A stretch of DNA of 43,237 nucleotides from an uncultured Thermogutta sp. (GTDB lineage: Bacteria > Planctomycetota > Planctomycetia > Pirellulales > Thermoguttaceae), in NCBI GenBank assembly GCA_937128505.1, contig CAKZMM010000151.1:1-43237 (forward strand), in the 5' to 3' direction. Below, in pieces: positions 17,951-42,206 of the stretch. A program made the translations under genes and the position numbers. Below the pieces are notes generated by a model that worked only from the letters and a program-made list of their open reading frames with translations, was not told the origin of the DNA and did not search any database. The first letter of the stretch is position 1, and each line of letters opens with the position of its first letter.

Positions 17951-18121
17951 GATCTCAGGAAACAAACTCTGAAGCAAAAAAGATTTCTTGGGAAAAGGAA
18001 ACAGGATAACCACCGCAAGAGCGCGTACAGATCGACACCCAAAGAATGACTAAGAATGAAGCGCGGATAAAGCCATTAAAGGCTTGGGGAACCAACTGCT
18101 TGCCGAGTTGTTGGTGCGGAA

Positions 18122-21612: not shown

Positions 21613-21914
21613 ATTTTTGGGCGCTAGAGACGCCGACCTTTCCGGGGCAAAGATCCGGCTCGTAAAAGCGGGATCTTATGGGTAAAAAACAAGGTTTTGC
21701 AAAAAATCAGTCTCGGAACAAACTTCGTTGGGATACGCAGTCGACACGCCTTTTTCTTACGCGACTTTCAAGCTCATTACCCCTTTAGCTCGCTTGAGTA
21801 TCTGATAACAAAGGTGCCGGCTTTGGATCGCTCACTCGGCCCCGAGTCAAACGAGGGGCAAAGAGCGCTTCCCGGCCGGCGGGGGGTATTGGCTACGAAT
21901 CGATGAGGTTGCCC
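21613..21914. other. gene-free stretch
   Basis: About 300 nt with no supported gene. Only short inverted repeats are visible, such as GGCG/CGCC near 21620-21635 and GATCC/GGATC near 21652-21675; none has a T-tract. Confidence 0.4.
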
Positions 21915-22586: not shown

Positions 22587-22759
22587 AGCTCGAAAGTGCT
22601 TGGATCGCAGCCGAAATCTCTCGCGGATCTTTGCCGGCAATGTGGAGCAAGCTAACGGCGCGATGTTCCCTCGGTAAATCGTGGAAAGTGACTACCCGCC
22701 AATTTCGGTGCAGAGACGACTTGACAGGATTTCGTTCAAACGGCTGAAACGGGTGAACT

Positions 22760-23419
22760 ATGGGGGATGAAACCTTCGAATCATACCCCACGGATTTTCA
22801 GAGTTGGTTGGCCCGAACCCCGTCCCAGGACCACCTGGATCAAGCGTTGGAGCGTGCGTACGAGAACCTGCAAGAGCAATCCGAAGAGCAGCTTGTCTTC
22901 TTGGGAGCAGTGCCGATTCCTTCGGGCTGGCAATTGCCCGTGCTGAACGACGGGTTCGAACTTTTTCCGGAATCACGGCGAATTTTTACCGTAGCCGGGC
23001 AGCCGGTCTCGCCGATTTGGCAGTTGCTCGCCTTGCACTATTTGACGATTCGAGAAAGGCCGAAGAAATTGCCGCCGGAGGTCACTTTTGCGGACTTACC
23101 TGGGGCTCGAACCTACGCCGGCGTTTATCAGCAGCGGACCGTTGGTCGTCTTTGCGCCAGTGTAGGCCAAAGTAAGGCGACCCTCTTCGGGGCCGCACTT
23201 TCCTTGGGTGGACAAGTTGTCTTGGGCGGGGATTTGGCGTTTGAATTCGAGGTCTTTCCCCGGATTACCATCCGCCTAATCTGGTACGCCTCCGATGAGG
23301 AATTCAGTCCGCATGCCACGCTGCTTTTGCCCCCCAATATCGAGCAGTATTTTTGCAGCGAAGATATTGTCGTGCTTTCGGAACGGCTGGTAGCGCGGTT
23401 ATGCGGTCGTCCCTTCTAA
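22760..23419 (+). CDS. DUF3786-type protein
   Basis: 219 residues, cytoplasmic, no known activity. The segments LLALHYLTIRERPKKLPPEVTFADLPGARTYAGVY and FPRITIRLIWYASDEEFSPHATLLLPPNIEQYFCSEDIVVLSERLV match, from memory, the pattern of DUF3786, a family common in acetogens, sulfate reducers and other anaerobes and often located near corrinoid or acetyl-CoA pathway genes. It is convergent with the one-carbon operon on its right, so co-transcription is not indicated, but the neighbourhood fits. The start codon has only a weak ribosome binding site. Confidence 0.65.
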   Translation: MGDETFESYPTDFQSWLARTPSQDHLDQALERAYENLQEQSEEQLVFLGAVPIPSGWQLPVLNDGFELFPESRRIFTVAGQPVSPIWQLLALHYLTIRERPKKLPPEVTFADLPGARTYAGVYQQRTVGRLCASVGQSKATLFGAALSLGGQVVLGGDLAFEFEVFPRITIRLIWYASDEEFSPHATLLLPPNIEQYFCSEDIVVLSERLVARLCGRPF

Positions 23420-26397: not shown

Positions 26398-26777
26398 CGA
26401 GGAGTTCTCCCCGCCACAGATACTAACTCGCATAGCTGCCTAATGGCGTCCTCTGAACGTGATCACGCCCGTTCAATTCAAAGCATCAAGGTGTGGCTAA
26501 TAGCAGGTTGCACCGCAAATCTCAAGTTCGTGACGCATGTTTAATGCCACTTTCCGGAATTGCGCTACAGTACACCTTTCCCAAGACGTTTCAATCCCGC
26601 GCGGTTGTCGGCGATTACAGCCCCAGTGCTTCGCTGACCTACTTTCCATTACTTATGGAGTCGATTCGCTCTTGCCCTCTGCAACTTTCCAGATTTCTGT
26701 TACTTTCAAGGATTTGAACGCTCCGCGATTTTCTGAAAATCATCTGATTTTGTTAAAATCATCCGATTTTCTCAAAA
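26398..26777. other. spacer between the nuoF-like gene and fdhA
   Basis: No supported gene in 380 nt. It holds AT-rich palindromes at 26736-26784. A separate promoter for fdhA could lie here, but no clear one was recognised. Confidence 0.5.
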
Positions 26778-26784
26778 TCATTCG
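26736..26784 (-). repeat. tandem AT-rich palindromes at the end of the nuoF-like gene
   Basis: AAAATCATCTGATTTT (26736-26751) and AAAATCATCCGATTTT (26755-26770) are followed by a half copy AAAATCATTCG (26774-26784) that overlaps the stop codon of the nuoF-like gene. The units repeat every 19 nt. They could end or slow transcription before fdhA, or bind a dimeric regulator. Confidence 0.55.
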
Positions 26785-28625
26785 ACGACTATGGCGCCCT
26801 GTGGGCACACGTCGATGCACGTGCCGCAACGGGTGCATTGCGATGGATCAATCTGCGGTCGATCCTCTCCAACGATCACCCCGTTTGCCGTGCATGAATC
26901 CGCGCAGATCATACAGCCCACGCAGATCTCACTGATCCGGAAGCGGATGAGCGCCTTGCAACTTCGCGCTGGGCACACTTTTTCGAGGTGTGCCTGATAT
27001 TCCGGGCGAAAGTACCGCAAGGTTGAAAGCACAGGATTAGGTGTCGTCTTACCCAACCCACAAAGGGAACCCAAACGCACCACTTCCGACAATTGCTCGA
27101 GTAGGGCGAGATCTTCATCACTGCCCCGCCCCTGAGTCAAATCCGTCAAGATATCCAAAAGTTGACGATTCCCTAAGCGACACGGGGGACATTCGCCGCA
27201 GGATTCTTTCTGTGCGAAATCGAGAAAATACCGGGCGAAATCGACCATGCACGTCCTCTCATCCATCACAACCACACCCCCGGAGCCCATGATCGTACCG
27301 GCGGCTTGCAGCGAATCGTAATCGATCGGCGTATCGAGCAGCTCGGCCGGGATACATCCGCCGGAGGGACCACCGATTTGCACGGCTTTAAAAGACCGAT
27401 CGTTGAGAATTCCCCCGCCGATATCATAAACCAGTCGTCGCAAGGTGGTACCCAAGGGCACTTCGACCAAACCGGTGCGTTTTACTTTACCCACCAGCGA
27501 AAAGGTCTTCGTCCCCTTACTGGCTGGAGTTCCATATTGAGCGAACCATTCGGCACCCCGTTGGAGGATCTGGGTGACACAAGCCAGGGTTTCTACATTG
27601 TTGATGACCGTGGGTTTCCCCCAAAGTCCATAGGTGGCAGGATATGGGGGGCGGGGCCGTGGCATGCCGCGGCGGCCCTCAATCGAGGCGATTAACGCGG
27701 TTTCTTCTCCGCAGACAAAGGCGCCGGCACCTTCTTTTATCCGCACGCGGAAACTGAAGCCGCTATCCAAAATGTTCTCGCCGAGAAACCCGTACGCTTC
27801 TGCCTGAGCAATCGCCGTACGCAACCGCTCCAGGGCCAAAGGATATTCGGCCCGGCAATAGATATAGGCTTCCGAGGCTCCGATCGCATAGCCGGCAATG
27901 ATCAGCCCCTCTAAAACTAAATGGGGATCTCCCTCGATGAGGGAGCGATTCATGAAGGCACCCGGGTCACCTTCATCGGCATTGCAGACCACATAACGGC
28001 GATCGGCGGAAGTCTCGCGGCAAAGCTGCCATTTTTTCCAGGTGGGAAAGCCTGCCCCGCCACGACCCCGGAGCCCCGCCTCCCGAATTCGTTCGATCAC
28101 GTTCTCCGAGCCTATCGTCAGGCCTCTCGCCAGCCCCGAATACCCCCCGTGCGCCAGATAATGATCGATGTTTGTCGGATCAATCTCGCCGCAATGGCAC
28201 AAAGTGCGTCGGACCTGGAAGCGGAAAAAATCGTGTTTTTCCAGCGGCCGAACCCCATCGAGGCTTTGACTGTTTAACGTTCCGAGTGCGATCTCGGGAG
28301 TCACTTTTTCTTCGGCAAACCATCGTCGAACAAGTTCGGGAACGCGCTCCGGCCGAACCGGCCCGTAGCAAATCCCCGGCAGATCGGGCCGCATTACACT
28401 CACCAAAGGCTCGGCATAGCAGGCCCCCGAGCATCCCACTTCCAAGAAATCGCAGTCTAAACCCAGACGCTTCGTTTCCTGGCGAAGCGCGGCCAAAACC
28501 TGCATTGCGCCGGCGGCCCGACCGCAGGTTGCCGTCCCCACCGCGATCCACGGCTTTTGTTGATCCTGCCACTGAGCCCACTTTTCGCCAGCACGCCGCT
28601 GGAGTGTTTCGAACTGCGGAGTCAT
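26778..28625 (-). CDS. NuoF-like NAD(P)H-binding flavoprotein of the formate dehydrogenase
   Basis: 615 residues. An N-terminal thioredoxin-like ferredoxin domain (GTATCGRAAGA, VGCSGACYAEPLV) is followed by the NADH- and FMN-binding NuoF core (GRGGAGFPTWKKW, VCNADEGDPGAFMNR), the NuoF 4Fe-4S motif SCGECPPCRLG, and a C-terminal pair of 4Fe-4S motifs (CVGCMICADSC, CTRCGTCIDVCPQGA). This is the HydB/HndC/FdhB layout. It would pass electrons between NAD(P)H and FdhA, and possibly ferredoxin if the complex bifurcates. ATG at 28625 overlaps the TGA of the nuoE-like gene (TGATG), so translation is coupled; a longer in-frame start would overlap nuoE much more. Confidence 0.95.
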   Translation of the reverse strand: MTPQFETLQRRAGEKWAQWQDQQKPWIAVGTATCGRAAGAMQVLAALRQETKRLGLDCDFLEVGCSGACYAEPLVSVMRPDLPGICYGPVRPERVPELVRRWFAEEKVTPEIALGTLNSQSLDGVRPLEKHDFFRFQVRRTLCHCGEIDPTNIDHYLAHGGYSGLARGLTIGSENVIERIREAGLRGRGGAGFPTWKKWQLCRETSADRRYVVCNADEGDPGAFMNRSLIEGDPHLVLEGLIIAGYAIGASEAYIYCRAEYPLALERLRTAIAQAEAYGFLGENILDSGFSFRVRIKEGAGAFVCGEETALIASIEGRRGMPRPRPPYPATYGLWGKPTVINNVETLACVTQILQRGAEWFAQYGTPASKGTKTFSLVGKVKRTGLVEVPLGTTLRRLVYDIGGGILNDRSFKAVQIGGPSGGCIPAELLDTPIDYDSLQAAGTIMGSGGVVVMDERTCMVDFARYFLDFAQKESCGECPPCRLGNRQLLDILTDLTQGRGSDEDLALLEQLSEVVRLGSLCGLGKTTPNPVLSTLRYFRPEYQAHLEKVCPARSCKALIRFRISEICVGCMICADSCTANGVIVGEDRPQIDPSQCTRCGTCIDVCPQGAIVVE

Positions 28626-29098
28626 CACCGCCCTCCACGTCCGAGAATTTCGCGGATCTTTTCGGGAGTGAGTTTTCCTGCGACTGCTTGATCGATCATG
28701 ATGCAAGGTGCAAGACCGCAGGCTCCGATGCAGGCGACCGTCTCGAGGGAGTATTCAAAGTCCGGCGTCGTTTGCCCTTCTTCAATTCCCAAATGTTGCT
28801 GAATCGCGCGCAAGATCTCGGTCGCCCCCTGCACGTAGCACGAAGTTCCCCGGCACACCATAATGTGCTTCCGCCCACGGGGTTGAAACCGGAACTGGGC
28901 ATAGAACGTGGCCACGCCGTACACAGCGCTTTCCGGTACTCGAAGGTATTCCGCCACGCGCTTCATGGCCGGCTCGGGCAAATACCCCAGTTGAGCCTGC
29001 ACCGCCTGCAAAACCGGTATCAATTCCTGCTGCTCCGGCGGAAAATTACTCAAGAGCTCTTCAAGCTGCATTTCTGTGATCTCGGTTGCTTGGTTCAT
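28625..29098 (-). CDS. NuoE-like 2Fe-2S subunit of the formate dehydrogenase
   Basis: 157 residues, a thioredoxin-like ferredoxin of the NuoE/HydC/HndA group. An N-terminal helical part (LQAVQAQLGYLPEPAMKRVAEYLRVPESAVYGVATFY) precedes the cluster motif, with Cys in CRGTSCYVQGA and CIGACGLAPC. It partners the following NuoF-like protein, with which it shares a TGATG overlap. GGAG 7 nt upstream of the ATG supports the start. The gap of 169 nt from metF is the first break in an otherwise tight mvhD-metV-metF run. Confidence 0.95.
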   Translation of the reverse strand: MNQATEITEMQLEELLSNFPPEQQELIPVLQAVQAQLGYLPEPAMKRVAEYLRVPESAVYGVATFYAQFRFQPRGRKHIMVCRGTSCYVQGATEILRAIQQHLGIEEGQTTPDFEYSLETVACIGACGLAPCIMIDQAVAGKLTPEKIREILGRGGR

Positions 29099-29267: not shown

Positions 29268-30149
29268 TCACTCGGCGGTGCGGAGGATATCCGGAACCCG
29301 CTCCTCCTTGCCGATCGCCATAATGTGGACCCCGTCGCAGAGTTTTTCGTCGCGAATTTTGCGGATCATTTCCCCGGCGATTTGGATCCCCATTTCAATG
29401 GCTTTGCCCTTCGGGGCGGACGCCAAGCGATCGATGAGATGGTCCGGCACCATGATGCCCGGAACGTTCTTGTTCATATAGCGGGCCATTCCGGCCGATA
29501 CCAAAAGGACAATTCCCGCCAAAAGCTTTACGCCATTCGGCTGAGCCCGATCCAAAAACCGCTTGAAGTTGTCAAGATCGTAGATCGCCTGGGTTTGAAA
29601 GAATTGGGCCCCCGCCGCGATCTTTTTGTGAAACTTGATGATCTGGGGTTCGATCGGATCGGCTTCCGGCGTGACTACCGCACCGGCAAAGAAGTCCGTT
29701 TTCCCCTGAAGGTCATTGCCGGCCAAATCCTTCCCCTCATTCATCCCGCTGACTGTTACAAGCAATTGGACGCTATCAAGGTCGAAGACGGGCTTCGCCT
29801 GTGGATGATCGCCTACGGTTACATAATCGCCGGTAAGGCACAACACGTTGCGAATCCCCAGCACCCATGCGGAAAGAAGCTCAGATTGTAGGGCCAAACG
29901 ATTCCGATCGCGGCAGGTCAGTTGCAAAATGGGCTCGCCGCCATGGTCGAGAATCAGCCGGCAGACCGCCATCGAACTGACCCGCATCACCGAGCTCTGA
30001 TTGTCGGTGACATTTAAACCGTCCACTTTGTCTTTCAAGAGCTCAATGTGATGAATCAGAGGCTCGATGTCGGTACCTTTTGGGGGGCCGATTTCCGCAG
30101 TGATCACAAATTTCTTTTCTTGGCATGCCTGGCGAAACGGAACTCCCAT
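29268..30149 (-). CDS. metF: 5,10-methylenetetrahydrofolate reductase
   Basis: Reduces methylene-THF to methyl-THF using an FAD in a TIM barrel. 293 residues, matching the short bacterial form. Seen: FVITAEIGPPKGTD at the N-terminus with the catalytic Glu, LNVTDNQSS, LQLTCRDRNRLALQSELL, VLCLTGDY, and AGAQFFQTQAIYDLDNFKRF. It starts 4 nt after the metV stop, and metV encodes the zinc/FeS partner found with MetF in acetogens. With HdrABC-MvhD encoded just upstream, the likely form is the large MetVF-HdrABC-MvhD complex described in Moorella thermoacetica. Confidence 0.96.
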   Translation of the reverse strand: MGVPFRQACQEKKFVITAEIGPPKGTDIEPLIHHIELLKDKVDGLNVTDNQSSVMRVSSMAVCRLILDHGGEPILQLTCRDRNRLALQSELLSAWVLGIRNVLCLTGDYVTVGDHPQAKPVFDLDSVQLLVTVSGMNEGKDLAGNDLQGKTDFFAGAVVTPEADPIEPQIIKFHKKIAAGAQFFQTQAIYDLDNFKRFLDRAQPNGVKLLAGIVLLVSAGMARYMNKNVPGIMVPDHLIDRLASAPKGKAIEMGIQIAGEMIRKIRDEKLCDGVHIMAIGKEERVPDILRTAE

Positions 30150-30153
30150 GGCT

Positions 30154-30834
30154 TTAGGGCTCCTGGTTTTCCGCTTTCTGGAAGGCTTCGTGAGTGAATC
30201 GAGCTGGCTTGGTCGCCACGCTGTAATCCTTCGGCAGCTGAATCTTCTTCAATAAATCCAAGCGACCCAATTTTTCCAAACGACGATAGATGAGGGTCCA
30301 CGCACAATCCTTGGTGCCGTCAACCTCGCATTTTCCGTGGTTGGTGCCGCCACACGGTCCGTTCAGCAGGTTTTTGGCACACATCGTCATGGGGCAGATC
30401 CCGCCGGTTTGATCGAGGATGCAGTCCGCGCAAGCTGTGCACCGCTGCGACCAAACCCCGGGCCCTTCCGCTACACCGATAAAAAGTGTATTCAACGCCG
30501 GGAGAACTGGCTTATGGTCGAACCTTTCGGCCAAAAACTGAACGCCCGCCCCGCACGCTGTGGACAAAAGCAAATCATATTGATCCACACAAGCGGCTAG
30601 AGGCGCAAAATACTCGCGATCGCATTGACGGGTCACGGTAACCTCGTCGATCTGCTGACGCCGCCCTGCCAGTTTGGCCCGCATCCGCAACTGCTCGGCC
30701 AGAATCTCTACTTCCTTCTCGCCGCCGGCCATGCACACAGCCACGCACGTGCCACATCCGACGACAAGAACCCGCTCCGCTCCCTCGAGAAATCCCTCGA
30801 TTTGTTCGAGCGGTTTGCGTTTGGCCACAATCAT
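30154..30834 (-). CDS. metV: MetV-like partner of methylenetetrahydrofolate reductase
   Basis: 226 residues. Cys-rich: VVGCGTCVAVCMAGG near the N-terminus, CTACADCILDQTGGICPMTMCAKNLLNGPCGG in the second half, and GKCEVDGTKDCAWTLIYRRLE near the end. This is the methylene-THF reductase C-terminal domain pattern seen in acetogen MetV proteins, which support electron transfer to MetF. Starts 3 nt after the mvhD stop and ends 4 nt before metF, so the three genes are translationally linked. Confidence 0.93.
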   Translation of the reverse strand: MIVAKRKPLEQIEGFLEGAERVLVVGCGTCVAVCMAGGEKEVEILAEQLRMRAKLAGRRQQIDEVTVTRQCDREYFAPLAACVDQYDLLLSTACGAGVQFLAERFDHKPVLPALNTLFIGVAEGPGVWSQRCTACADCILDQTGGICPMTMCAKNLLNGPCGGTNHGKCEVDGTKDCAWTLIYRRLEKLGRLDLLKKIQLPKDYSVATKPARFTHEAFQKAENQEP

Positions 30835-30837
30835 GGT

Positions 30838-31458
30838 TTATGCTCCCGGAATCGTGCCCTCTGGTGTGCGAACTGGTGTTGCCCCTTTCTCGCGCTCCGC
30901 CTCAGTAACAAGCCGACCAAACCGGGCGGGTGGCAACGCCGGATGACTATCCGGCTCCCGTTGCAGCTTTTTACCGTACTTTTCATGGGCGGAAAATCGA
31001 AGTGGATTAGGCCCTAGAGCCATGGCCCGCTCCACCATCTGATTCGCTCGCTGCGCAAAAAGCGGCCCGGCCGACGCCGGGATATGGAAAAACTCTAATC
31101 GCTCCGGTTCCAGCCCAATTTCGGCCAGCAAATGTTTGGCATGAGCGACAACCTGGATCGCACGCAAGTTCCCCTCCAGAAAATGGCAATCACCGATGTT
31201 GCAACCGGCGACAAACACTGCATCGGCCCCTTCTTCGAAGGCTTTTAGAAGTAATAGAGCGTCGATTTTGCCCGTGCAAAGAGTCTTAATGATCCGCACC
31301 TGCGGCGAGTAGCTCAACCGCATGGAGCCCGCCAAATCCGCGGCCGTGTAAGCACAGTACGTACAGCAATAAGCAACGACCTTCGGCTCGTACGCCTTTC
31401 CAGTCTCAAGTTCGTGACCTGCCCCGTGCGCCGCATGGCTCGCCTGAGTGTCGTTCAC
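30838..31458 (-). CDS. mvhD: MvhD/FlpD-like iron-sulfur electron transfer protein
   Basis: Passes electrons to the HdrA subunit by a 2Fe-2S cluster. 206 residues from the GTG at 31458. Seen: VVAYCCTYCAYTAADLAG at about residue 27, VRIIKTLCTGKIDALLLLKAFEEGADAVFVAGCNIGDCHFLEGN, and a C-terminal helix region. The frame stays open upstream to a TTG at 31668 that overlaps hdrA, but that extension is polar, lacks family similarity and has no ribosome binding site, whereas GGAGGAAGG precedes the GTG. The 194 nt between hdrA and this start carry two copies of GAATATTC. MvhD normally links HdrA to a hydrogenase or, as in acetogens, to the MetVF complex; no hydrogenase gene is in the window. Confidence 0.9.
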   Translation of the reverse strand: MNDTQASHAAHGAGHELETGKAYEPKVVAYCCTYCAYTAADLAGSMRLSYSPQVRIIKTLCTGKIDALLLLKAFEEGADAVFVAGCNIGDCHFLEGNLRAIQVVAHAKHLLAEIGLEPERLEFFHIPASAGPLFAQRANQMVERAMALGPNPLRFSAHEKYGKKLQREPDSHPALPPARFGRLVTEAEREKGATPVRTPEGTIPGA

Positions 31459-31652
31459 CGGTCGCCCTTCCTCCAGTTCATCGGTCGTGCGATTGAAGAT
31501 CGAAAACGCAGGCTGCGAATATTCCTCTGCTTTTGAATATTCTCTTTCGCGTTTGAGCGCTACCGTTTTATTCCGAAGGGGATTTTGATCCTCTCGCTGC
31601 GACGATCGAGTTTTCGGCGCATCACAACCTTGGGCGGCGGAGCAAGGTCCTC

Positions 31653-34600
31653 CTAGCGGGCCGAGCAAAGCACCGTTAATCCCCGCGGATCGTAAAGGGC
31701 CTCCACCTTCGCCAAGAGCTGCTCGTCATCATAATGTCGAGTGACGATGGCTTTGCGCGGGCAAGCCGAAGCACACACCCCACAACCCTGACAGCTAGCC
31801 GGCTCAATGTACGCCACGCCGAATTCGTTAATCTGTGGCACATCGTACGGACAAAGCCGCACACACGTTAGGCAGGCGGCGCAGCGCGACGAATCCACTT
31901 CCGAAACCACGCCCGAGCGATATAGCACCGACTTCGAGAGCAGGGTGGCAGCCCGCGCTGCTGCCCCCTTTGCCTGCGCCACCGCTTCGCTTAGGGTTTT
32001 CGGCCCATGAGCCAATCCTGCCAAATAGATCCCTTCAGTTGCGAAATCCAGAGGGCGCAGCTTCATGTGGGCCTCGAGGAAAAACCCATCCGCCCCCAGG
32101 GGTACTTTCAACAATTGCGAAATCCGCGACGCATCCGCCGCCGGCTCGATCCCTGCCGAGAGAACCACGCAATCCGCGGACAATACCAACTCTCTTCGGA
32201 GATTTGTTTCCCAAACACTAATCCGGAGTTTTTCGCCCAGTTGAACCTCGGGTAATCGTGGCGGTTCAAAACGGAGGAACGTCACGCCCTTTTCCCGTGC
32301 TTCGCTGTAGGCAAGCTCCTGAAAACCGTAGGTCCGCATATCCCGATGCAGCACGACCACGGACACGTCTGGATTGATCGCCTTGATCGCCAAGGCATTC
32401 TTGACTGCCTGCTGGCAGCAAACCCGCGAACAATAGGGATGTTGTGGGTCGCGTGATCCCACACATTGAATCATCACTACGCTCTTTAACTTGCTGACGA
32501 AATCCGCGTCGGCTAGGCGATCTTCGAGTTCCATTTGCGTGATAACGCGCGGATCGCTCCCGTAGCCGAATTGCGTCGGACGGTGAGGCTGGGCACCGGT
32601 GGCGACGATGATCGCCCCTGCGGTGAACTCAACCGCTCGCCCGTTGCCCAGGGCCTTCACACGGAATTGGCCCACGTGTCCTGAGAGTTCGTTTAGCTCT
32701 ACACCGGTGAATAGCTTGATTTTTTCATGCGTTGAAATCTTGTCGATGAGTTGGGCCAAAAACCGCTGAGGATCCATTCCATCCAAAAGCCGCCGCAACG
32801 ATCGTGCCTGCCCGCCAAGCGCGGGTTCCCGTTCCAATAGGGCGACCGGAAAACCCTGCCGGGCCAGACTCAGGGCTGCGGTCATTCCCGCCACACCGCC
32901 CCCCAAGACCAAAGCCCGCTGCTCGATCGGCACCGCGATGTCTGGCCAAGGCCGCAGTCGGCTGGCCCGCGCCACCGCCATTCGCACTAAATCCTTCGCC
33001 TTTTGCGTGGCTTTTTCCGGCTGATCGTAATGCACCCAAGAGCACTGATCACGAATATTGGCCATCTCAAACAGATGTTTGTTCAGCCCGGCTTCCCGCA
33101 AGGTCTCTTGGAACAAGGGTTCATGAGTCCGGGGTGTACAACTGGCCACCACCACCCGGTTTAAGCAATGCTCCTCAATAATTCGACAAATTCGCGCCTG
33201 GGTATCGGTGGAACAAGTGTAGAGATTCTCCTCCGCGTACACCACATTGGGGAGTATTCGAGCATACTCCACTAGATCCGAAACCCCAACCGTCCGCGCA
33301 ATATTGGTCCCGCAACGACACACAAATACGCCAATCCGCGGTGGTTCCTTACTCACATCTCGCTCAGGCGGAAAGACTCGCTCGCTGACGCGGGTTCCTC
33401 GTACTTCAGCCAAAAGTTCTGCGGCAGCGGCCGCTGCACCGCTAGCCGTCATGACCGTTTCCGGAATATCCATCGGGGCCGCGAAACTACCGGCCACAAA
33501 AATGCCGGGCCGCCCTGTGGAGACCGGGAGTAATCCATCGCTTTTACAGAAGCCATGCTCGGTCAAATCGATACCCAGCGCCTCCGCCAGCCGAGCTGCG
33601 CTTGGCGAAGGTCGTAAGCCCACGCTCAATACGACTAAATCGAATTCTTCCTCGGCGATTCTGCCTTGCGGATCCATGAAACTGATTAGTAGATTTTTCG
33701 TCCGCTGCTGCTCCTTTACCGTGGAGATGATTCCGCGGCAAAAACGAATGCTACCGGAAGCCTTCGCCCGTTCGTAATACGCTTCGAAGCCCTTCCCGAA
33801 TGCCCGAATGTCGTTGTAGAAAATCGTCGCCTCCAAGCCCGGGACATGATCTACCGCCATGATCGCTTCTTTGATGGCATACATGCAACAAACGCTGCTA
33901 CAGTAAGGGTTACCGCATGCAGCGTCCCGGGAACCCACGCACTGGAGCCATGCCATTCGTTTTGGGGGCTGATGATCGGAGGGGCGGACGACATGCCCTT
34001 GGAATGGGCCCGAAGCACTCAGGATTCGTTCAAATTCTAAGCTGGTGATTACGTTCTTACATCGGCCGTACCCGTACTCCGGGCGCAAAGCGGGATCAAA
34101 GGGTTCAAAGCCCGGGGCCAAGATCACTGCCCCGACTTCGACGGTCACCTCCTCCGGCACCATTTGGTGGACTACCGCGCCAGCGGAACATGCCTTCACG
34201 CACTGCATGCATTCGCTGCAAAGACCGCAGGCTAAGCAGCGGGCGGCCTCGCGCCGCGCCTCTTCTGGGCTGAAGGTGCCTTCAATTTCCTGGAAATCGG
34301 TGCGTTCGCCTACTGGCAACCGCGCTGCGCGAATCCTACTTCTAACCTCGAAACGCCTTTCAGGGATGCTTGCCGCCTTTTGCGGCGCTACAACCCGTCC
34401 CAAACGCAAGTCTTCCCCCCGAAGATAGCGATCGATTGATTCGGCCGCCTCGTGCCCCTGAGCTACCGCCTCCACCACCGAGCGCGGCCCGGTTGCTAAA
34501 TCCCCAGCAGCAAAAACCCCGGGTAGTGGTGTTTCCAACGTGATAGGGTCAATCGCTAGGTTGCGGTGGTCCCGGTCCCAAAGCGGACTATCGGAATCAA

Positions 34601-36149
34601 GGAAAGAAAGATCTGGCCGCTGGCCAATCGCCACAATGACCCAGTCCGCCTCCGTACTGCTTAGCTGCGAGCCGAATCGCGGCGCAAACCGCCCCGAATC
34701 ATCGTAAACCCTAACGCACTGCTGCAATTCGATCCGGTGCACTCGACCGTTTTTACCGACAAAGCGCTTGGGCCCCCAGCCGCACGTTAACTTCACCCCC
34801 TCTTCGATCGCATCTTCGATTTCCCACGGGTATGCCGGCATTTCCTCGCGCTGCTCGAGGCACACCAGCTGCACCTCTCCAGCGCCGAGTCGCCGTGCCG
34901 TCATCGCCACGTCGATCGCCACATTCCCCCCGCCGATCACCACCACTTTGCCGAAAAGCCTCGGCGGAGTTGGCGATTTGGCCTCCCGCAGAAAGTCCAA
35001 TCCCAGCAAGACTCCGTCCAGATCTAGCCCTTGCATCGGCGAACCGTCTGTGCTCCGAGTGAGTACGGCCGGCTTTGTGCAACCAACCGCTAGGAGCACC
35101 GCCCGATAACCCTCCTTTTGCAAGCTTTCCAAAGTAAAATCCTGTCCGAAACGTACCCCGGTCTTTACCTCGAAGCCTGCCGCCAGGATGTCGGCCAAAT
35201 CTTGCTGCAAACAATCCTCCGGCAGTCGGTAGCCCGGTATTCCCAGCAGCATGGTTCCGCCGAGCTTCTCGTTTGCTTCAAAAAGCGTCACAGGATAACC
35301 GAGAAGAGCAAGGTCGCGAGCGGCCGTCAGGCCGGCGGCTCCTCCGCCGATCACAGCCACCTTCGGCCTACGTGGGTCGATTTCTCCGCGGGGGGGTGAG
35401 GCCGGGTCATGACCTTCAGCACGACGGGTGGCCACCCAATCGGCTACGGCACGCTTCAGCGGCATTATTCCCACCGATTCGTCCAACTGCCGCCGGTTGC
35501 ACTGTGCCTCGCAGGGATGATGACAGATACGCCCGCAGGCCGAAACGAATGGGTTTCGCTGCCGAATTAAATCGTAAGCTTCCGCGAACCGCCCCTGAGC
35601 GACGAGCGCCACGTAGCCCTGGCAATTCACCCCCGCCGGGCAAGCCAAAACGCAAGGGGGCCGCTCGGTTTTACTGATGGCCATGGCCCCCGGGATCGCC
35701 TGCGGATACGGCTTGAAGATCGCCTTACGAGTTCCCAGATCTTCGTCGAACTCGCTCGGTAATTCCACCGGACATGCCTGGACGCAATCCCCGCAGGCAT
35801 TGCACTTGGAAAGTTCAACGTATCTCGGCCTTTTCCGAACCTTTAATCGGAATCGCCTCGGTTCGCCCTCAATTCCCGTGACTTCCGCAAGGGTCATCAA
35901 TTCGATGTTGCGATGCTTGCCCACCTCGATCAACTTGGGCGAGATCGTGCACATGGAACAGTCGTTCGTGGGAAACGTCTTATCGAGCTGAGCCATTCGG
36001 CCGCCGATAGCCGGAGACTCTTCGATAAGGACTACGCGAAAGCCTGCCTCGGCAAGGTCCAAGGCCGCCTGCATGCCGCCGATGCCCCCACCAACGACCG
36101 CCACTGCCCCGACCTTCTCAAATGCTTGCCCCGAAGCGAAGCTGCTCAT
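31653..36149 (-). CDS. hdrA: giant HdrA fusion: HdrA with inserted GltD-like module plus second HdrA
   Basis: 1498 residues. In order: FAD-binding start of a first HdrA (AVVGGGIGGMQAALDLAEAG), with NDCSMCTISPKL and a ferredoxin motif CNACGDCVQACP; an inserted GltD/NfnB-like NAD(P)H oxidoreductase (about 160-600; CVLACPAGVNCQGYV, VAVIGGGAAGLTAARDLA, VVVIGGGNVAIDVA, GVFAAGDLATGPRSVVEAVAQG); return to HdrA with CLACGLCSECMQCVKACSAG and WLQCVGSRD; a complete second HdrA (from about 938; RIGVFVCRCGTNI, LVLGGGVAGMTAALSLA, MIQCVGSRDPQHPYC); and a C-terminal two-cluster ferredoxin (CAACLTCVRLCP, CQGCGVCASACP). This gives three flavin sites and one NAD(P)H site. ATG at 36149 has AAGGA 7 nt upstream. 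Likely the electron-bifurcating or -confurcating core that feeds MetVF. Confidence 0.93.
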   Translation of the reverse strand: MSSFASGQAFEKVGAVAVVGGGIGGMQAALDLAEAGFRVVLIEESPAIGGRMAQLDKTFPTNDCSMCTISPKLIEVGKHRNIELMTLAEVTGIEGEPRRFRLKVRKRPRYVELSKCNACGDCVQACPVELPSEFDEDLGTRKAIFKPYPQAIPGAMAISKTERPPCVLACPAGVNCQGYVALVAQGRFAEAYDLIRQRNPFVSACGRICHHPCEAQCNRRQLDESVGIMPLKRAVADWVATRRAEGHDPASPPRGEIDPRRPKVAVIGGGAAGLTAARDLALLGYPVTLFEANEKLGGTMLLGIPGYRLPEDCLQQDLADILAAGFEVKTGVRFGQDFTLESLQKEGYRAVLLAVGCTKPAVLTRSTDGSPMQGLDLDGVLLGLDFLREAKSPTPPRLFGKVVVIGGGNVAIDVAMTARRLGAGEVQLVCLEQREEMPAYPWEIEDAIEEGVKLTCGWGPKRFVGKNGRVHRIELQQCVRVYDDSGRFAPRFGSQLSSTEADWVIVAIGQRPDLSFLDSDSPLWDRDHRNLAIDPITLETPLPGVFAAGDLATGPRSVVEAVAQGHEAAESIDRYLRGEDLRLGRVVAPQKAASIPERRFEVRSRIRAARLPVGERTDFQEIEGTFSPEEARREAARCLACGLCSECMQCVKACSAGAVVHQMVPEEVTVEVGAVILAPGFEPFDPALRPEYGYGRCKNVITSLEFERILSASGPFQGHVVRPSDHQPPKRMAWLQCVGSRDAACGNPYCSSVCCMYAIKEAIMAVDHVPGLEATIFYNDIRAFGKGFEAYYERAKASGSIRFCRGIISTVKEQQRTKNLLISFMDPQGRIAEEEFDLVVLSVGLRPSPSAARLAEALGIDLTEHGFCKSDGLLPVSTGRPGIFVAGSFAAPMDIPETVMTASGAAAAAAELLAEVRGTRVSERVFPPERDVSKEPPRIGVFVCRCGTNIARTVGVSDLVEYARILPNVVYAEENLYTCSTDTQARICRIIEEHCLNRVVVASCTPRTHEPLFQETLREAGLNKHLFEMANIRDQCSWVHYDQPEKATQKAKDLVRMAVARASRLRPWPDIAVPIEQRALVLGGGVAGMTAALSLARQGFPVALLEREPALGGQARSLRRLLDGMDPQRFLAQLIDKISTHEKIKLFTGVELNELSGHVGQFRVKALGNGRAVEFTAGAIIVATGAQPHRPTQFGYGSDPRVITQMELEDRLADADFVSKLKSVVMIQCVGSRDPQHPYCSRVCCQQAVKNALAIKAINPDVSVVVLHRDMRTYGFQELAYSEAREKGVTFLRFEPPRLPEVQLGEKLRISVWETNLRRELVLSADCVVLSAGIEPAADASRISQLLKVPLGADGFFLEAHMKLRPLDFATEGIYLAGLAHGPKTLSEAVAQAKGAAARAATLLSKSVLYRSGVVSEVDSSRCAACLTCVRLCPYDVPQINEFGVAYIEPASCQGCGVCASACPRKAIVTRHYDDEQLLAKVEALYDPRGLTVLCSAR

Positions 36150-36666: not shown

Positions 36667-37590
36667 TCAATTGGGTCGCGGCACAAACCCCTTCTGAGTA
36701 AGCAACGGTCGCGGATCAATCAAATGCCGTCTCCACAGGCGGTTCAAATCCGGCAAATCGAACGCAAGGGCCATCAATTCCGAGATATAAAATACCGGAA
36801 GCCTAGCAGCTCCTTTGCCTTCTCCGGATTCGTCGGCTTGGCGGCTATCCAAGTTCGATTGGCACAGGGGGCAATCCGTGACGATACACTCCGCTCCGGC
36901 CTCTCGCGCCGCACCCACCAATCGATCAATGAGCCGCTTGGCCACATCGGTTCTCGTGAGAACCAAGCTCCCTCCGCAACAGTCGGTTTTGTAAGACCAT
37001 GGCCGCACTTCCACCCCGAGCAGGGCCAAGAGTCGATCCATGCATTGCGGATCTTCTGCCGCCGGGGCATCAGTCACTTTCGGCGGCCGTTGCGAGAGGC
37101 ATCCGTAATAAGCAACGGCCTTTAAGCCGGTTAGTTGTCGGCGAACCCGAGCGCGAATCTCCCCCAGAAGAGGCGGCCGATCAAAAAACTCGTTGACATG
37201 CCAGACCGAAATCTGCGCGCTTTTCTGCCCGCCAGTTCCTTCCCCCTCCTCGCCGCTAGAATGCGCGGTACCCCCCACGGCGATTCCTGCCGAAACGGCG
37301 TGAGCCGCTTCCCCGTGTTTTTGGGCGTATTTCAATCGCTGAAAGCACGCAGCACACGGCACCAAAAGTTCCAGTCCGGCCCGCTCGGCAATTCGCAAGT
37401 TACGCTCCGCCAGGCCGAGGGCTAACTGATCGTTGACGAAATGCGCGCTTGACGCCCCGCAGCAATTCCAATCCTCCAACTCGCGGAGCTCGATTCCCAA
37501 TGCCCGGCAAACCGCCTGCAAACTGGCATCATACTCGGCAGCCGTTCCGTGGAGTGAACAGCCGGGATAGTAGGAAACTTGAATGGCCAC
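36667..37590 (-). CDS. hdrB: heterodisulfide reductase subunit B-like
   Basis: 307 residues with both CCG domains, each binding a noncubane 4Fe-4S cluster in characterised HdrB: first PGCSLHG, NCCGASSAHF and CAACF; second YYGCLSQRP, DCCGGSL and DCPLCQSNL. All cluster cysteines are present. A Gly/Ser/Glu-rich loop of about 25 residues (near 105-130) separates the two domains. GTG at 37590 is chosen over TTG at 37614, since GGGGG sits 8 nt before it and the family N-terminus is short. In methanogens HdrB reduces the CoM-CoB disulfide; in acetogen-type clusters such as this one it serves as an electron relay with MetVF, so its final acceptor is inferred. Confidence 0.94.
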   Translation of the reverse strand: MAIQVSYYPGCSLHGTAAEYDASLQAVCRALGIELRELEDWNCCGASSAHFVNDQLALGLAERNLRIAERAGLELLVPCAACFQRLKYAQKHGEAAHAVSAGIAVGGTAHSSGEEGEGTGGQKSAQISVWHVNEFFDRPPLLGEIRARVRRQLTGLKAVAYYGCLSQRPPKVTDAPAAEDPQCMDRLLALLGVEVRPWSYKTDCCGGSLVLTRTDVAKRLIDRLVGAAREAGAECIVTDCPLCQSNLDSRQADESGEGKGAARLPVFYISELMALAFDLPDLNRLWRRHLIDPRPLLTQKGFVPRPN

Positions 37591-37987
37591 GACATTAACC
37601 CCCGGGCGAATCAACTAGCGCTTTCGGGCACCTTCTTCGTCTTATCTTGCTGCCCAGACCCGTGCGCTATAGCTGGCGGCTCAGTGCCTTCCGAGTTTTA
37701 ATGCTCTCGCCGACTGCTGAGTCGTCAATACCTCGTCAAAATCCGCAATGACAAACATTCTTGCCGCATCTCCTGCGACAACCTTTGTTACCACTTCTCT
37801 AACTTTCTTGCCGCATTCCACGGCGATAGTTCAGCTCCTTGCCTCTGAAAACGCGCGGCAACCATACATCGCAGGATCAACCCTTAAATGGCCGCCCTGA
37901 TCCCCGCCTTGCCTGTTTGCGTACTCCTCGCTATGAGCCTCCTTACAAGAGCCAAGATTCCTTTGCGCAGGGGCCATATCGCAAAAG
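37591..37987. other. spacer between hdrC and hdrB
   Basis: About 400 nt without a supported gene. The short sequence TTCTTGCCGCAT occurs near 37758-37769 and in slightly varied form near 37806-37817. Nothing else is evident. Confidence 0.5.
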
Positions 37988-38584
37988 TCAGTCTGTCGTT
38001 TGGTAAGACTTTCGACCGGCCGGCCATGCCCCAAAAAACCGGCGCAAGAACTTGCGGCCTCTGATTCGGTGGGGCCAGAGGGGCAACTTTCCCCGCCAAA
38101 ACATCTTCCAGGCCAATCCAACATCATCAAGGAACTTGCGACTCATCAGCTTGTACCGAGCCACTGCCTCCAGTTCGAAAGCCCGGCCGTGGTGGCGAAT
38201 CGAATCCAAAAAGGCCCGATGAAATTCGGCTACCTCCTTTTGTTTCGGTGTCAAACCACGCAGGAGGCTCCGTTGACGAAGGGTGTCCATGACCCGCGCA
38301 ATATCGATTCCATTTGGACACCGCGTACTACAAGTCTGACAAGCCGCACATAACCAAATTGTTTCAGCCCGAAGTACCTCCTCTTCCAGTCCCAATTGCG
38401 TCATGAGCATGACTTGGTGGGGCAAAAGATCCATGGCGAAAGCCACCGGACACCCCGTAGAGCACTTCCCACATTGAACGCACAAAGACACCTTCTCACC
38501 ACTTGCGGCAGCCACGAGCTTGGCTAAGTGATGGGGACTCGGCGCCGAGGGAATAGACAGCCATGAGGAGACATCAATAGACAT
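37988..38584 (-). CDS. hdrC: heterodisulfide reductase subunit C-like
   Basis: 198 residues. Two 4Fe-4S motifs, CVQCGKCSTGCPVAFAMD and CAACQTCSTRCPNGIDIARV, sit in the N-terminal half and carry electrons from HdrA to HdrB. The C-terminal part (about 110-198) is helical and basic. ATG at 38584 has GGAGG 6 nt upstream and is preferred over the in-frame start 18 nt earlier. The order hdrC-hdrB-hdrA-mvhD-metV-metF matches the subunits of the acetogen methylene-THF reductase complex. Confidence 0.95.
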   Translation of the reverse strand: MSIDVSSWLSIPSAPSPHHLAKLVAAASGEKVSLCVQCGKCSTGCPVAFAMDLLPHQVMLMTQLGLEEEVLRAETIWLCAACQTCSTRCPNGIDIARVMDTLRQRSLLRGLTPKQKEVAEFHRAFLDSIRHHGRAFELEAVARYKLMSRKFLDDVGLAWKMFWRGKLPLWPHRIRGRKFLRRFFGAWPAGRKSYQTTD

Positions 38585-39121
38585 CGGCTGCCTCCACGCC
38601 AAAAAGAATCAAAGGTTTTCGCCAGAATTGTCAGTCTCTTACGACATTATATAGCTTAAGCGTATCTCCGCAACGCGTTTGTGTTACTGACTCTCGGACC
38701 AAGGGGGAGAGCATGCCGGGAATCCGGTTCATATCCGGGCATCACTGCAATTCAACTCCAAGTCCGCAGTGACATCAGTCAACCAAATCAAACTCACCTG
38801 GATATTGACACTTCACAATCTTTCCTGTTTTTATAGCGTTAATAAACTCGCCCATGAATTTTCTTAAATGTGACAATAATTGGTCAGCTCGCAGATAAAA
38901 AAGCCTTTTTTCTGTCGGAAGAAGGTATATCCAGCAGAAAAGGAGAGCACGGTCTCCTCCTCTTGTCATCAAACTCCCTATATCTACTTACCGATTCATC
39001 CCTCTTTCTATCCATGGTCAGCTCGCGTTCCCTTCTTCGGGACACCATAGACTCTCCCCGAAGCCTCCCCCGGTCGACGCAAAGAAGCCCCAACGCGTCC
39101 GAGGAACCATCCCCCAACTCA
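38585..39121. other. spacer between folD and hdrC
   Basis: About 540 nt with no supported gene. Open frames here on both strands are low-complexity (Ser/Arg-rich). No clear promoter or terminator was recognised. Confidence 0.5.
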
Positions 39122-40012
39122 TCAGCATCGGCCGTCGACGGCAAGTTTGGCGGCTTTTAACGTATTTTTCATCAACATAGTAATAGTCATCGGACCAACA
39201 CCGCCGGGAACCGGCGTGATCTTACCAGCTACCTCTTTGACGGCATCAAAATCCACGTCGCCCACCAATTTCGGCTTTCCACTACTGGTGATCCCCACCC
39301 GGTTGACCCCTACGTCAATGACCGTTGCGCCCGGGCGAACCATATCTGCGGTGATCGCTTTAGCGCGACCGGCCGCGACGATCAAGATCTCGGCCCGGCG
39401 GGTGTGCGCGGCAATATCCCGGGTTTTCGTATGGCAGACGGTTACCGTGGCGTTGGCCCCTGGCTTCTTCTGAAGCAGCATCACCGCGATTGGTTTCCCC
39501 ACGATATTGCTCCGACCTACCACCACAATTTCCGCACCCTCCGTGGGCGTTCCAGACCGGAGAATCAGTTCCTGAATTCCTGCCGGGGTACACGGTGGAA
39601 AAATCTCCTCCCCAATCATTAGCCGACCCACGTTCACCGGATGGAACCCGTCTACATCCTTGTTCGCGTCAATAGCAAAAAGTACTTTGCTTTCGTCCAT
39701 TTGGTCCGGCAAAGGTAATTGCACTAAAATGCCGTGAACCTCGGGATTGCGGTTCAACTCGTCGATCAGCTTCAGCAGGTTTGCCTCCGAGGTTTCCGCT
39801 GGTAAGGCATGATGAATGGATCGCATCCCGAGCTCTTCGCAGGCACGTCCTTTCGCGGTCACGTAAGACACAGAGGCCGGATTCTCGCCGACAAGAACGG
39901 TGCAAAGCCCCGGCGTGATCCCCGATCGCGCCTTAAAATCGGCAATCTCCTGCGCGAGCTCGCGGCGGATTTGCTCGGCTACCTGTTTGCCATCAATGAT
40001 CTCTGCTGCCAT
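39122..40012 (-). CDS. folD: bifunctional methylene-THF dehydrogenase / methenyl-THF cyclohydrolase
   Basis: Interconverts 10-formyl-THF, methenyl-THF and methylene-THF with NAD(P)H; it supplies the middle steps between Fhs and MetF, so no separate cyclohydrolase is needed. 296 residues, normal for the family. Seen: SYVTAKGRACEELG with the catalytic Lys, VQLPLPDQMDESKVLFAID, KDVDGFHPVNVG, and the nucleotide-binding region VVGRSNIVGKPIA. ATG at 40012 has GGGAG 7 nt upstream and replaces a start 24 nt earlier. Confidence 0.97.
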   Translation of the reverse strand: MAAEIIDGKQVAEQIRRELAQEIADFKARSGITPGLCTVLVGENPASVSYVTAKGRACEELGMRSIHHALPAETSEANLLKLIDELNRNPEVHGILVQLPLPDQMDESKVLFAIDANKDVDGFHPVNVGRLMIGEEIFPPCTPAGIQELILRSGTPTEGAEIVVVGRSNIVGKPIAVMLLQKKPGANATVTVCHTKTRDIAAHTRRAEILIVAAGRAKAITADMVRPGATVIDVGVNRVGITSSGKPKLVGDVDFDAVKEVAGKITPVPGGVGPMTITMLMKNTLKAAKLAVDGRC

Positions 40013-40433
40013 GGCTATACTCCCGGCTGACTTCAATCATCTTCATCCTGCCCAACGGGGTTTGAGCAAACCCCTGTTCAGGATCCCAACTCCCATTCGA
40101 TTATGTCCCCCCTGAAGCGATCCTTCTAACTTTCAGAAAGGGAGGCTATCCAGCTTCCAAAGGCGAAGCGCCCTACGCGTATTTTCCTGTTTCGAGGCCA
40201 CAGCGAGCTTGTTTTCGGTTCATCTGGACCTCTCCGAAGCCGAAAGCGCCGCCTGAGGATGTCCATAGATCGCGATTGGGCATTGGTCTGCCAGGTGTGC
40301 CTTTGCCTCATTGCCCGAAAGATCCCGGCAGACCTCTTTTCTAACGCAACTAAATTTTTTTCTGATACCTAGTGGGCGCGATAATGCGCGAGAGTCCCGA
40401 GTCTCCGCCCACTGAACGACCCTCGCCATAGCG
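40013..40433. other. spacer between fhs and folD
   Basis: About 420 nt without a supported gene or clear regulatory signal. Confidence 0.5.
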
Positions 40434-42206
40434 CTAAAACAGACCGCGGACTTGTCCGGTTTCGACATCCACATCGATCCGCCTAAATGCCGGGTCGGAG
40501 CTGGTTCCGGGCATCAGGGAAATGGTTCCGGCCACAGGGCAAATGAAGCGCGCCCCGCCGTATACCAGGAAATCGCGTACGGGAAGGACCCATCCCTTCG
40601 GCACCCCCTTGCGATTGGGGTCGTGACTGAGACTCAAATGCGTCTTCACCATCATCGTGGCAAACTGGCGGTAGTGCGGATCGCTTTCTAACCGCTTTGC
40701 CTTCTCTTCAGCCTCCGGCGTGTACGAGACCCCATCGGCCCCATAGACTTCCCGCGCGATCCGCTCGATCCGCTGACGCAGCGGAAGTTCCAAGTCGTAA
40801 AGAAAGCGAAATTCGTTTTTTTCCTCGCAGGCATCGATCACGGCATCAGCCAGCTCCAAGGCACCTTCGCCTCCCTTGAGCCAGTGATTGGAGACCGCCA
40901 CCCGGGCACCGACCTCCTCGACCATTCGCCGGACGAGTCGGATTTCCGCCTCCGTGTCGGTGTGGAAGCGGTTGATGCATACCACCGGTTTGATCCCCGA
41001 TTTCTTCACCGTGGCGATGTGATGGAGAAGGTTGCCCATACCATCCTCGAGCCAAGCCAGGTTTTCTTCGAAGTATTCCTTCGGGATCGGCTTTCCCGGC
41101 GGGCAGGGTGGCGCCCCCGCATTCACACCGTGATGCTTCAATCCTCGAACAGTTGTGGTGATCACCGCCACGTTCGGAATTTTACCTGAATTACGGCACT
41201 TCACATTCCAGAATTTTTCGAAACCGATATCCGCACCGAATCCAGATTCGGTGATGTGGTAATCGGCCAGCTTTAAGCACAACATGTCGCCGACCACCGA
41301 GGATTGCCCGATTGCAATATTGGCAAACGGCCCCGCATGCACAAAACACGGTTGCCCCTCCAAGGATTGCAGCAAATTGGGATAAATGGCATGGCGTAGC
41401 CAGGCGGTCATCGCCCCGGCCACCTCCAGATCTTCGGTCGTAATCGGCCCGCCTTGCTTGTCGTAAGCTACGATGATTTGTCCGATCCGCTGGCGGAGGT
41501 CCTTTAAGTCGCTGAAAATCGACAAGATCGCCATGACCTCGGACGAGACGGCGATATTGAATTTGCTCTGCATCATGTAGCCGTCCATTCGGCCGCCGAT
41601 CCCAATGATGATGTTCCGCAAGGCCTGGGCACAAAAATCGATAACCCAACCCATCTCCACGTTTGTCGGGTCGATATCCAACCGTCGCAGGCCGATCTTT
41701 TCCAGATAAGCATCGCTGTAGTTTCTCTCGTGCTGGAGCCTCGCAGTCAGCGCAACCATTGCCAAATTATGGGCATTCATCACGGCATTGATGTCCCCGG
41801 TAAGCCCAAGGGAGAAATCGGTCAGCGGAATGACCTGCGACAGTCCGCCCCCGGCAGCCGAACCTTTGATATTCATCGTCGGGCCACCCGAGGGTTGCCG
41901 GATACAAGCCACGACCTTTTTGCCTCGTTTGCCCAGCCCTTGCAACAACCCGATGGTGGTCGTCGATTTGCCCTCGCCCAGCGGAGTGGGATTGATAGCC
42001 GTCACATCGATGAACTTACCATCGGGCTTATCCTTCAGCCGGTCCAAAGTCCGCCGGTAATCCACCTTGGCCACATAATGCCCGTAGGGGATCAGCTCGT
42101 CACGGCAGATGCCCAGCTCATCCGCCAATTGGTAACAGGTCTTCATCCGCGACTCGGCCTCAGCGGCAATTTCCCAATCCTTATGCTCCCTCGGATCGAG
42201 CACCAC
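40434..42206 (-). CDS. fhs: formate--tetrahydrofolate ligase
   Basis: Uses ATP to activate formate as 10-formyl-THF, the energy-consuming entry step of the methyl branch. 590 residues, slightly longer than the usual 555-560. The P-loop region is [14 protein letters not shown], followed by [19 protein letters not shown] and [32 protein letters not shown] and [19 protein letters not shown] lie in the central part. The start is a GTG preceded by a perfect AGGAGG at 6 nt spacing; a second GTG follows immediately. First gene of the minus-strand one-carbon island. Confidence 0.97.

Follow-up and report, generated by a model that had tools for sequence, protein, structure and literature searches.

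To which electron-transfer system does a planctomycete protein that combines two HdrA units and a GltD-like module in one chain belong? Such a protein, of 1498 residues, is encoded at positions 31653 to 36149 on the minus strand of the window, by which we mean the whole 43,237-nucleotide stretch of DNA analyzed here (contig CAKZMM010000151.1 of an uncultured Thermogutta sp.). A preliminary description had seen in it a self-contained bifurcation core joining NAD(P)H, ferredoxin, and MetVF. We consider it, at a probability of about 0.82, to be the HdrA of a type IV (Moorella-type) methylene-THF reductase (MTHFR), HdrCBA-MvhD-MetVF, a presumed electron-splitting or electron-joining system, in a planctomycete endowed with Wood-Ljungdahl genes. 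In the acetogenic bacterium from which such a flavoprotein is already known, it is thought to feed NADH electrons into the folate branch of CO2 fixation. The third electron carrier of the type IV methylene-THF reductases is a question in acetogen bioenergetics to which this locus gives no answer. The comparison of homologues does provide testable handles: variation among them in the coenzyme-site motif, a bifurcation pair that unit 2, unlike unit 1, has often lost, and a formate dehydrogenase encoded within the gene run.

A single chain conserved across homologues

The frame runs uninterrupted on the minus strand from an ATG at 36149 down to 31653. A TTG at 36200 offers an alternative start, giving 1515 residues, and the corresponding plus-strand frame has stops throughout. 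Pfam models recover four Pyr_redox_2 stretches, a match at residues 160 to 242 to Fer4_20, the N-terminal Fe-S domain of GltD type, and a C-terminal Fer4. The NCBIfam HdrA2 model scores 1025.7 bits in five stretches and does not reach its cut-off of 1100, as may well happen with a fused chain.

The best 80 of more than 580 matches were retained as genome loci, a set that leans towards full length because of this choice. The architecture lies in one chain in 75 of these 80, including 20 whose frame contains a single TGA codon; of the remainder, four (L028, L052, L065, and L087) are cut by contig ends and one (L081) is broken by stops. A full or near-full chain is likewise seen in 29 of 30 Bacillota loci, the other (L134) ending with its contig. 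Since 75 of the best 80 loci keep the architecture as a single chain, chance can be excluded as its origin, and its recurrence in these and the 29 Bacillota loci rules out an artefact of frame or assembly. The closest relatives among the best 80 are planctomycete, namely, a Pirellulales protein at 66% identity (L044) and one from Thermoguttaceae at 63% (L009). Matches at E <= 1e-100, many of which are partial, come from 37 of 294 genomes drawn from the phylum of the window, a count that includes the source genome. Residue conservation is given below over a 76-row alignment of the window protein, 55 single-frame homologues, and the 20 with one in-frame TGA, the five incomplete loci being left out.

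Domain anatomy

The order along the chain is a TrxR-like HdrA unit with an inserted ferredoxin that is split by a GltD/NfnB module, a second HdrA unit, and a C-terminal ferredoxin. An AlphaFold2 model of residues 1 to 935, computed from 56 sequences (the window protein and 55 of the 75 homologues), has a pLDDT of 90.9 and a pTM of 0.86. It aligns with 422 residues of the HdrA structure 8rwn_A (1.6 A, 46% identity, Z 49.2), with model residues 11 to 916 spanning around the GltD insert, so that the module is indeed inserted within the first HdrA unit, as first described, and not appended to it. The insert itself, as residues 160 to 655 of the model, matches NfnABC 9bov_A over 471 residues (2.1 A, 40% identity, Z 45.8). 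The model of residues 925 to 1498, from 46 sequences (the window protein and 45 of the 75 homologues; pLDDT 88.7, pTM 0.77), aligns with 546 of the 643 residues of HdrA 8rvu_A (Z 42.7, rmsd 3.5) and lacks the inserted ferredoxin. The second unit thus has the N- and C-terminal domains of HdrA but is not the full second HdrA that had been proposed. Likewise, the two-cluster ferredoxin thought to follow it is present, but as HdrA's own C-terminal domain, with nothing added. Compared with solved HdrA structures, unit 1 is without the N- and C-terminal domains and unit 2 is without the inserted ferredoxin; hence, the two are complementary.

All domains lie on the minus strand. The N-terminal half of the unit 1 TrxR-like FAD domain (residues ~13 to 112; 35814 to 36113), supported by conserved residues and the model, holds a GxGxxG motif (G20 to G25) and C64/C67; its bounds, like those of the C-terminal half (residues 661 to 925), were placed from motifs. 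It is followed by the first half of the inserted ferredoxin (C116, C119, C122, and C126; 35670 to 35813), each cysteine being present in 76/76 rows. The GltD/NfnB-like insert (residues ~161 to 630; 34260 to 35669), which is supported by Pfam, solved-structure alignments, residue conservation, and the model, has Fe-S cysteines at 166, 170, 209, 213, and 217, an FAD motif (G268 to G273), an NAD site (G406 to A411), and a coenzyme motif (C430-L431-E432). The C-terminal cysteines of the module and the second half of the inserted ferredoxin come next (C638, C641, C644, C647, C650, and C654, again each in 76/76 rows; 34170 to 34259), and then the C-terminal half of the unit 1 TrxR-like domain, with E707, K760, and a C737/C750/C754/C755 cluster (33375 to 34169). 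In unit 2, residue conservation and the model delineate an N-terminal Fe-S domain (C944, C946, C979, and C1004; 32940 to 33341) and a TrxR-like FAD domain with E1209, K1250, and a C1229/C1240/C1244/C1245 cluster (31914 to 32921). The C-terminal 2[4Fe-4S] ferredoxin domain (31680 to 31898) is recovered by Pfam and residue conservation.

Flavin, cluster, and bifurcation residues

The cofactor complement anticipated in the preliminary description, three flavins, one NAD(P)H site, and many FeS clusters, agrees with what the conserved residues predict: the window protein has three FAD motifs, one NAD site, and both E/K pairs (E707/K760 and E1209/K1250), and at 37 positions a cysteine is conserved in 80% or more of the 76 rows. 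A loss of flavin-binding residues was looked for in this alignment, and they are intact in all units. The FAD-motif glycines of the GltD module and unit 2 are present in 76/76 rows, and the unit 1 motif is intact wherever it is covered (G20 in 63/76 rows, the other 13 being gaps).

A glutamate and a lysine, E356/K409 in HdrA of M. thermolithotrophicus, are given as the pair marking the bifurcating flavin (PMC9430772, available in part). The corresponding pair of unit 1 is near-invariant (E707 in 76/76 and K760 in 74/76 rows). In unit 2, E1209 is found in 43/76 and K1250 in 54/76 rows, with both together in the window protein and 37 of the 75 homologues. As the pair is missing from unit 2 in 38/76 rows, this unit may not bifurcate in general, and the unit 1 flavin would be the constant bifurcation site.

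The structure of a methanogen HdrA has a cluster ligand, Cys197, that crosses between two HdrA copies, according to the available part of PMC9012536. Its equivalent is C67 in unit 1. Unit 2 has none: the stretch checked contains a cysteine in 1/76 rows, and in 1/31 rows of an alignment of the 30 Bacillota loci with the window protein. The loss is complementary, unit 1 having C67 and no N-terminal domain, and the same source describes this kind of complementarity for both fused HdrA and Moorella HdrA; in the ANME HdrA3/4 proteins that it describes, the unit order is reversed relative to the window protein. At the position of Cys67 (window codon 35949 to 35951), 20 of the 75 homologues, including L018, L021, and L027, have an in-frame TGA, which at a cross-unit cluster ligand probably encodes selenocysteine.

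Relationship to the Moorella-type MTHFR and other systems

The architecture, which had been implied to be new, is already published for the MTHFR HdrA of M. thermoacetica (PMC9430772), the outcome named beforehand as telling against the claim. In the available text, that protein is type IV, with 1487 residues (162.8 kDa); an additional ferredoxin and TrxR-like domain interrupted by GltD is followed by an HdrA without inserted ferredoxin (residues 922 to 1487), and the cofactors listed are eight [4Fe-4S] clusters, three FAD, and one NAD(P)H site, with E696/K750 and E1204/K1246. Compared with this description, the window protein has the same domain order, the same position of GltD inside the first TrxR/ferredoxin unit, a second unit likewise devoid of inserted ferredoxin, and E and K in both units. 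We also searched 249 genomes of the Desulfofundulus phylum (Bacillota), 48 of which gave a match at E <= 1e-150, and took loci for 30. Five of the 30 (L106, L108, L111, L112, and L113) encode a protein of exactly 1487 residues from the start codon with all four published residue numbers and, on this fingerprint, are presumably Moorella. These five proteins are 52% identical (51.8 to 52.3%) to the window protein. All five have the type IV gene order HdrC-HdrB-HdrA-MvhD-MetV-MetF, as does the window. The window HdrA is thus a real, well-preserved orthologue of a described protein. It differs from the M. thermoacetica system in its planctomycete host and in a gene run that adds Fhs, FolD, and NuoE-NuoF-FdhA.

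Other known systems are less similar. A GltD/NfnB module within the inserted ferredoxin of HdrA is a trait of type III HdrA and ANME-1 HdrA9-11 (PMC12054007 and PMC9012536, in their available parts), and in the window protein the cysteine motifs at 116 to 126 and 638 to 654 flank the insert in this way. However, type III HdrA is described there as otherwise most like type I, with a single HdrA, whereas the window protein has a second HdrA fused behind; a type III variant, A9-TRX-C, is also named in these papers. The methanogen HdrA layout (about 650 residues, one unit with an N-terminal domain, an uninterrupted inserted ferredoxin, and a C-terminal ferredoxin) differs from the two units and interrupted ferredoxin seen here. 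The MTHFR HdrA of Sporomusa ovata (101 kDa) shares two TrxR-like units and a MetVF gene cluster with the window but, as far as the available text of PMC9430772 describes it, is without the GltD insert and has E/K in one unit only. HdrL of Desulfobacterium autotrophicum, by its description in part of PMC2702500 a heterodisulfide reductase/glutamate synthase fusion adjoining mvhD, may be likened to it, but HdrL1 is located with dsr genes. From the accessible portions of the literature, similar gene clusters have been published for Chloroflexi (PMC5736913) and Actinobacteria (PMC7325909), HdrABC adjoining metF for syntrophic sulfate reducers (PMC10553843), GltD/NfnB inserts in HdrA for ANME-1 and Bathyarchaeota (PMC9012536, PMC12054007), and Wood-Ljungdahl genes for Pirellulales (PMC13335318). 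A non-exhaustive literature search found no planctomycete example of an HdrCBA-MvhD-MetVF operon. The novelty is limited, as far as we found, to the host lineage, the linkage to formate dehydrogenase genes, and what the comparison of residues and motifs has shown.

Gene run and host genome

The minus-strand run begins with Fhs, the formate-THF ligase (40434 to 42206; profile matches), FolD (39122 to 40036; NCBIfam), an HdrC-like protein with two CxxCxxCxxxC motifs (37988 to 38602; profile matches and motifs), and an HdrB-like protein with two CCG motifs (36667 to 37614; Pfam, NCBIfam, and motifs). HdrA is followed by MvhD/FlpD (30838 to 31668; Pfam), MetV (30154 to 30834; PF12225), and MetF (29268 to 30149; PF02219), and then by a NuoE-like [2Fe-2S] subunit (28625 to 29098; Pfam), a NuoF-like NADH/FMN subunit (26778 to 28706; Pfam and NCBIfam), and the alpha subunit of a formate dehydrogenase, FdhA, with a NuoG-type N terminus (23671 to 26433; Pfam and NCBIfam). 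The proposed link to MetVF is therefore borne out by MetV and MetF in the same run. A self-contained core is not supported, as HdrB, HdrC, MvhD, MetV, and MetF are all encoded by separate genes. The TTG-start frame of MvhD has about 90 residues ahead of the homology and a long C-terminal tail; because homology begins near residue 93, the true start probably lies downstream, likely at a later GTG.

The NuoE-NuoF-FdhA genes (23671 to 29098) directly follow metF in the window and also in L044, and in L060 NuoE and NuoF are present before the contig ends; these genes are absent after metF in L059 and L011, where the flank has room. Cys371 of the window FdhA corresponds to an in-frame TGA in the L044 homologue (L044 21497 to 21499). 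In L009, about 9 kb of opposite-strand genes (14850 to 23206) lie between hdrA and mvhD, and the MetV gene is found past this block, apparently on the same contig (number 40). The block was considered as a CODH/ACS locus and rejected, since Pfam identifies PilM-like and DUF1559 genes, with one frame without a match.

The source genome (5.58 Mb in 198 contigs, 98% complete) has an ACS gene beside CODH, a CoFeSP subunit, and RACo genes on another contig (C170), and the locus thereby extends type IV MTHFR to a planctomycete with CODH/ACS. The genome also encodes MqnC, above its cut-off, NuoD, a [NiFe] hydrogenase with MvhD, HdrA, and EtfAB, and a [FeFe] hydrogenase with NuoE and NuoF, so that several electron partners are possible. 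Rnf was rejected as an energy partner: the sole sizeable match in an RnfC search of this genome scores 192 bits, below the cut-off of 245.95, and is more likely a microcompartment protein because it adjoins a BMC shell gene.

The coenzyme site of the GltD insert

The nearest solved structures to the insert, inclusive of the cysteine motif at its C-terminal end, are the GltD-like subunits of NfnABC and StnABC (9bov_A and 8oh5_C), which are separate from HdrA and have a Y-R-R motif, found in all five of the solved sequences (of eight) whose alignments were inspected, where the window protein has C430-L431-E432. In this position, behind the NAD(P) Rossmann strand, Y-R-R presumably holds the 2'-phosphate of NADPH, and the window insert lacks this mark of the NfnB/GltD NADPH site. 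Two Y-R-R-type structures, 9bov and 9n5v, are titled NAD-bound, the titles not saying at which site. C-L-E is found in all five loci with the Moorella fingerprint, and NADH oxidation is reported to occur at Moorella HdrA (PMC8760232 and PMC9430772, in part). From these three residues we predict a preference for NADH. Against this, a rule that contrasts GxGxxG with GxGxxA (given in the available part of PMC12054007) would assign NADP to the GxGxxA site of the window protein; this rule does not separate the motif groups, GxGxxA being present at the NAD site in 75/76 rows.

Glutamate occupies the third place of the motif in 53 of 106 rows (C-L-E, S-L-E, A-L-E, or M-L-E). The motif has changed at least 9 times on the 76-row tree, 8 of these changes being forced by well supported branches, and 11 times on the larger tree. 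In the 87 assessable rows, MetVF lies downstream of hdrA in 42 x-L-E rows and is missing from 2, as against 23 with and 20 without in the Y-R-R type; here, downstream means a MetV or MetF match within about 4.5 kb, with some labels assigned by hand, L009 scored as linked although its MetV sits beyond the 9-kb block, and the Bacillota labels resting on about 1.5 kb of flank. The single Y-S-R row (L032), grouped with Y-R-R, is not among the assessable rows. An independent-pairs test on the tree was not significant (8 pairs, with the traits agreeing in 0.8 on average and never opposed), and a link between motif and MetVF is therefore not shown beyond shared descent.

Proposed mechanism and alternatives

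By analogy with methanogen HdrA and the work on Moorella, NADH would reduce the FAD of the GltD insert by hydride transfer, and the electrons would pass through the clusters of GltD and the split ferredoxin, and then through a cluster shared by the unit 2 N-terminal domain and Cys67, to the unit 1 FAD. This flavin would split or join electron pairs, whichever the direction of the reaction. One branch would lead via HdrC-HdrB to MetV-MetF, where methylene-THF is reduced, and along the other, electrons would be exchanged with a third carrier by way of the C-terminal ferredoxin domain and MvhD. Units 1 and 2 would form one asymmetric HdrA pair in a single chain. Bifurcation is unproven even in Moorella, since NADH-driven methylene-THF reduction was never observed with its complex, according to the available text of PMC8760232; for the S. 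ovata homologue, the accessible part of PMC9430772 reports no co-reduction of NAD(P)+ or ferredoxin.

Among the alternatives, one that we regard as possible, if unlikely, is confurcation with quinol, in which NADH and menaquinol jointly reduce methylene-THF and MvhD links the complex to a membrane partner. It has been put forward for M. thermoacetica (PMC13040438), where it is a proposal only, and the MqnC and NuoD genes of the source genome are in keeping with it. No membrane-family match was obtained among the scanned genes of the run, and MenB gave no match in the genome, although MqnC is indicative of the other route. We give distinctly less credence to a plain relay without bifurcation, in which the extra flavins merely wire NADH to MetVF. 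The reaction is exergonic alone, the reverse requiring +23 kJ/mol (PMC13391211), and a coupled reaction is not reported in the available parts of PMC9430772 and PMC8760232. Yet the E/K pair by which bifurcating HdrA is recognized is near-invariant in unit 1, and the uncoupled NADH-dependent reduction was sought in Moorella and not observed (PMC8760232, in part).

The core originally proposed, bifurcating NADPH or NADH electrons to ferredoxin and MetVF in a self-contained manner, now appears improbable. The split inserted-ferredoxin cysteines are all retained, E and K are present in both units, and the source genome encodes CODH/ACS, an enzyme that uses ferredoxin. However, the GltD module splits the very domain that serves ferredoxin in methanogen HdrA, an insertion that may block ferredoxin, as argued in the available text of PMC12054007, and the second carrier of the Moorella complex is stated not to be ferredoxin (PMC13040438, PMC13391211). 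A ferredoxin partner is for these reasons not supported, and the separate genes of the other subunits also count against this reading. We think it very unlikely, too, that in these planctomycetes the MTHFR forms a physical unit with the neighboring NADH-dependent formate dehydrogenase of the NuoEF type, with MvhD (or NuoE) joining the C-terminal ferredoxin domain of HdrA to NuoEF-FdhA. The third carrier would then be either the CO2/formate couple or NAD+ at NuoF, and, if true, one electron-splitting machine would drive both CO2-to-formate and methylene-to-methyl conversion. Finally, a paralogue with another function that merely lies beside metVF is highly improbable, for although MetVF is missing downstream in 22 of the 87 assessable rows (20 of the Y-R-R and 2 of the x-L-E type), it is present in 65, the window included, where MvhD, MetV, and MetF follow immediately in the Moorella order.

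Other features of the window and the source genome

Elsewhere in the window are a 635-residue frame without a Pfam match (19705 to 21612, plus strand) and two unrelated neighbors, a DacZ-like diadenylate cyclase (9426 to 10403, minus strand) and a family 11 rhamnogalacturonan lyase (16118 to 17950, plus strand). In the source genome, an RnfC-like protein with a NuoF-type FMN domain lies beside a BMC shell protein in a likely microcompartment locus (contig C84; L138 5271 to 7694). A single run on contig C29 (L141 5538 to 17490) encodes HdrD-like proteins, EtfAB, HdrA, MvhD, and both [NiFe] hydrogenase subunits, possibly an H2/Etf/Hdr complex. Contig C154 carries a second GltD-insert HdrA of 1116 residues (L139 7359 to 10709), which follows HdrC and HdrB genes and, having one unit that includes an N-terminal domain, shows the type III layout.
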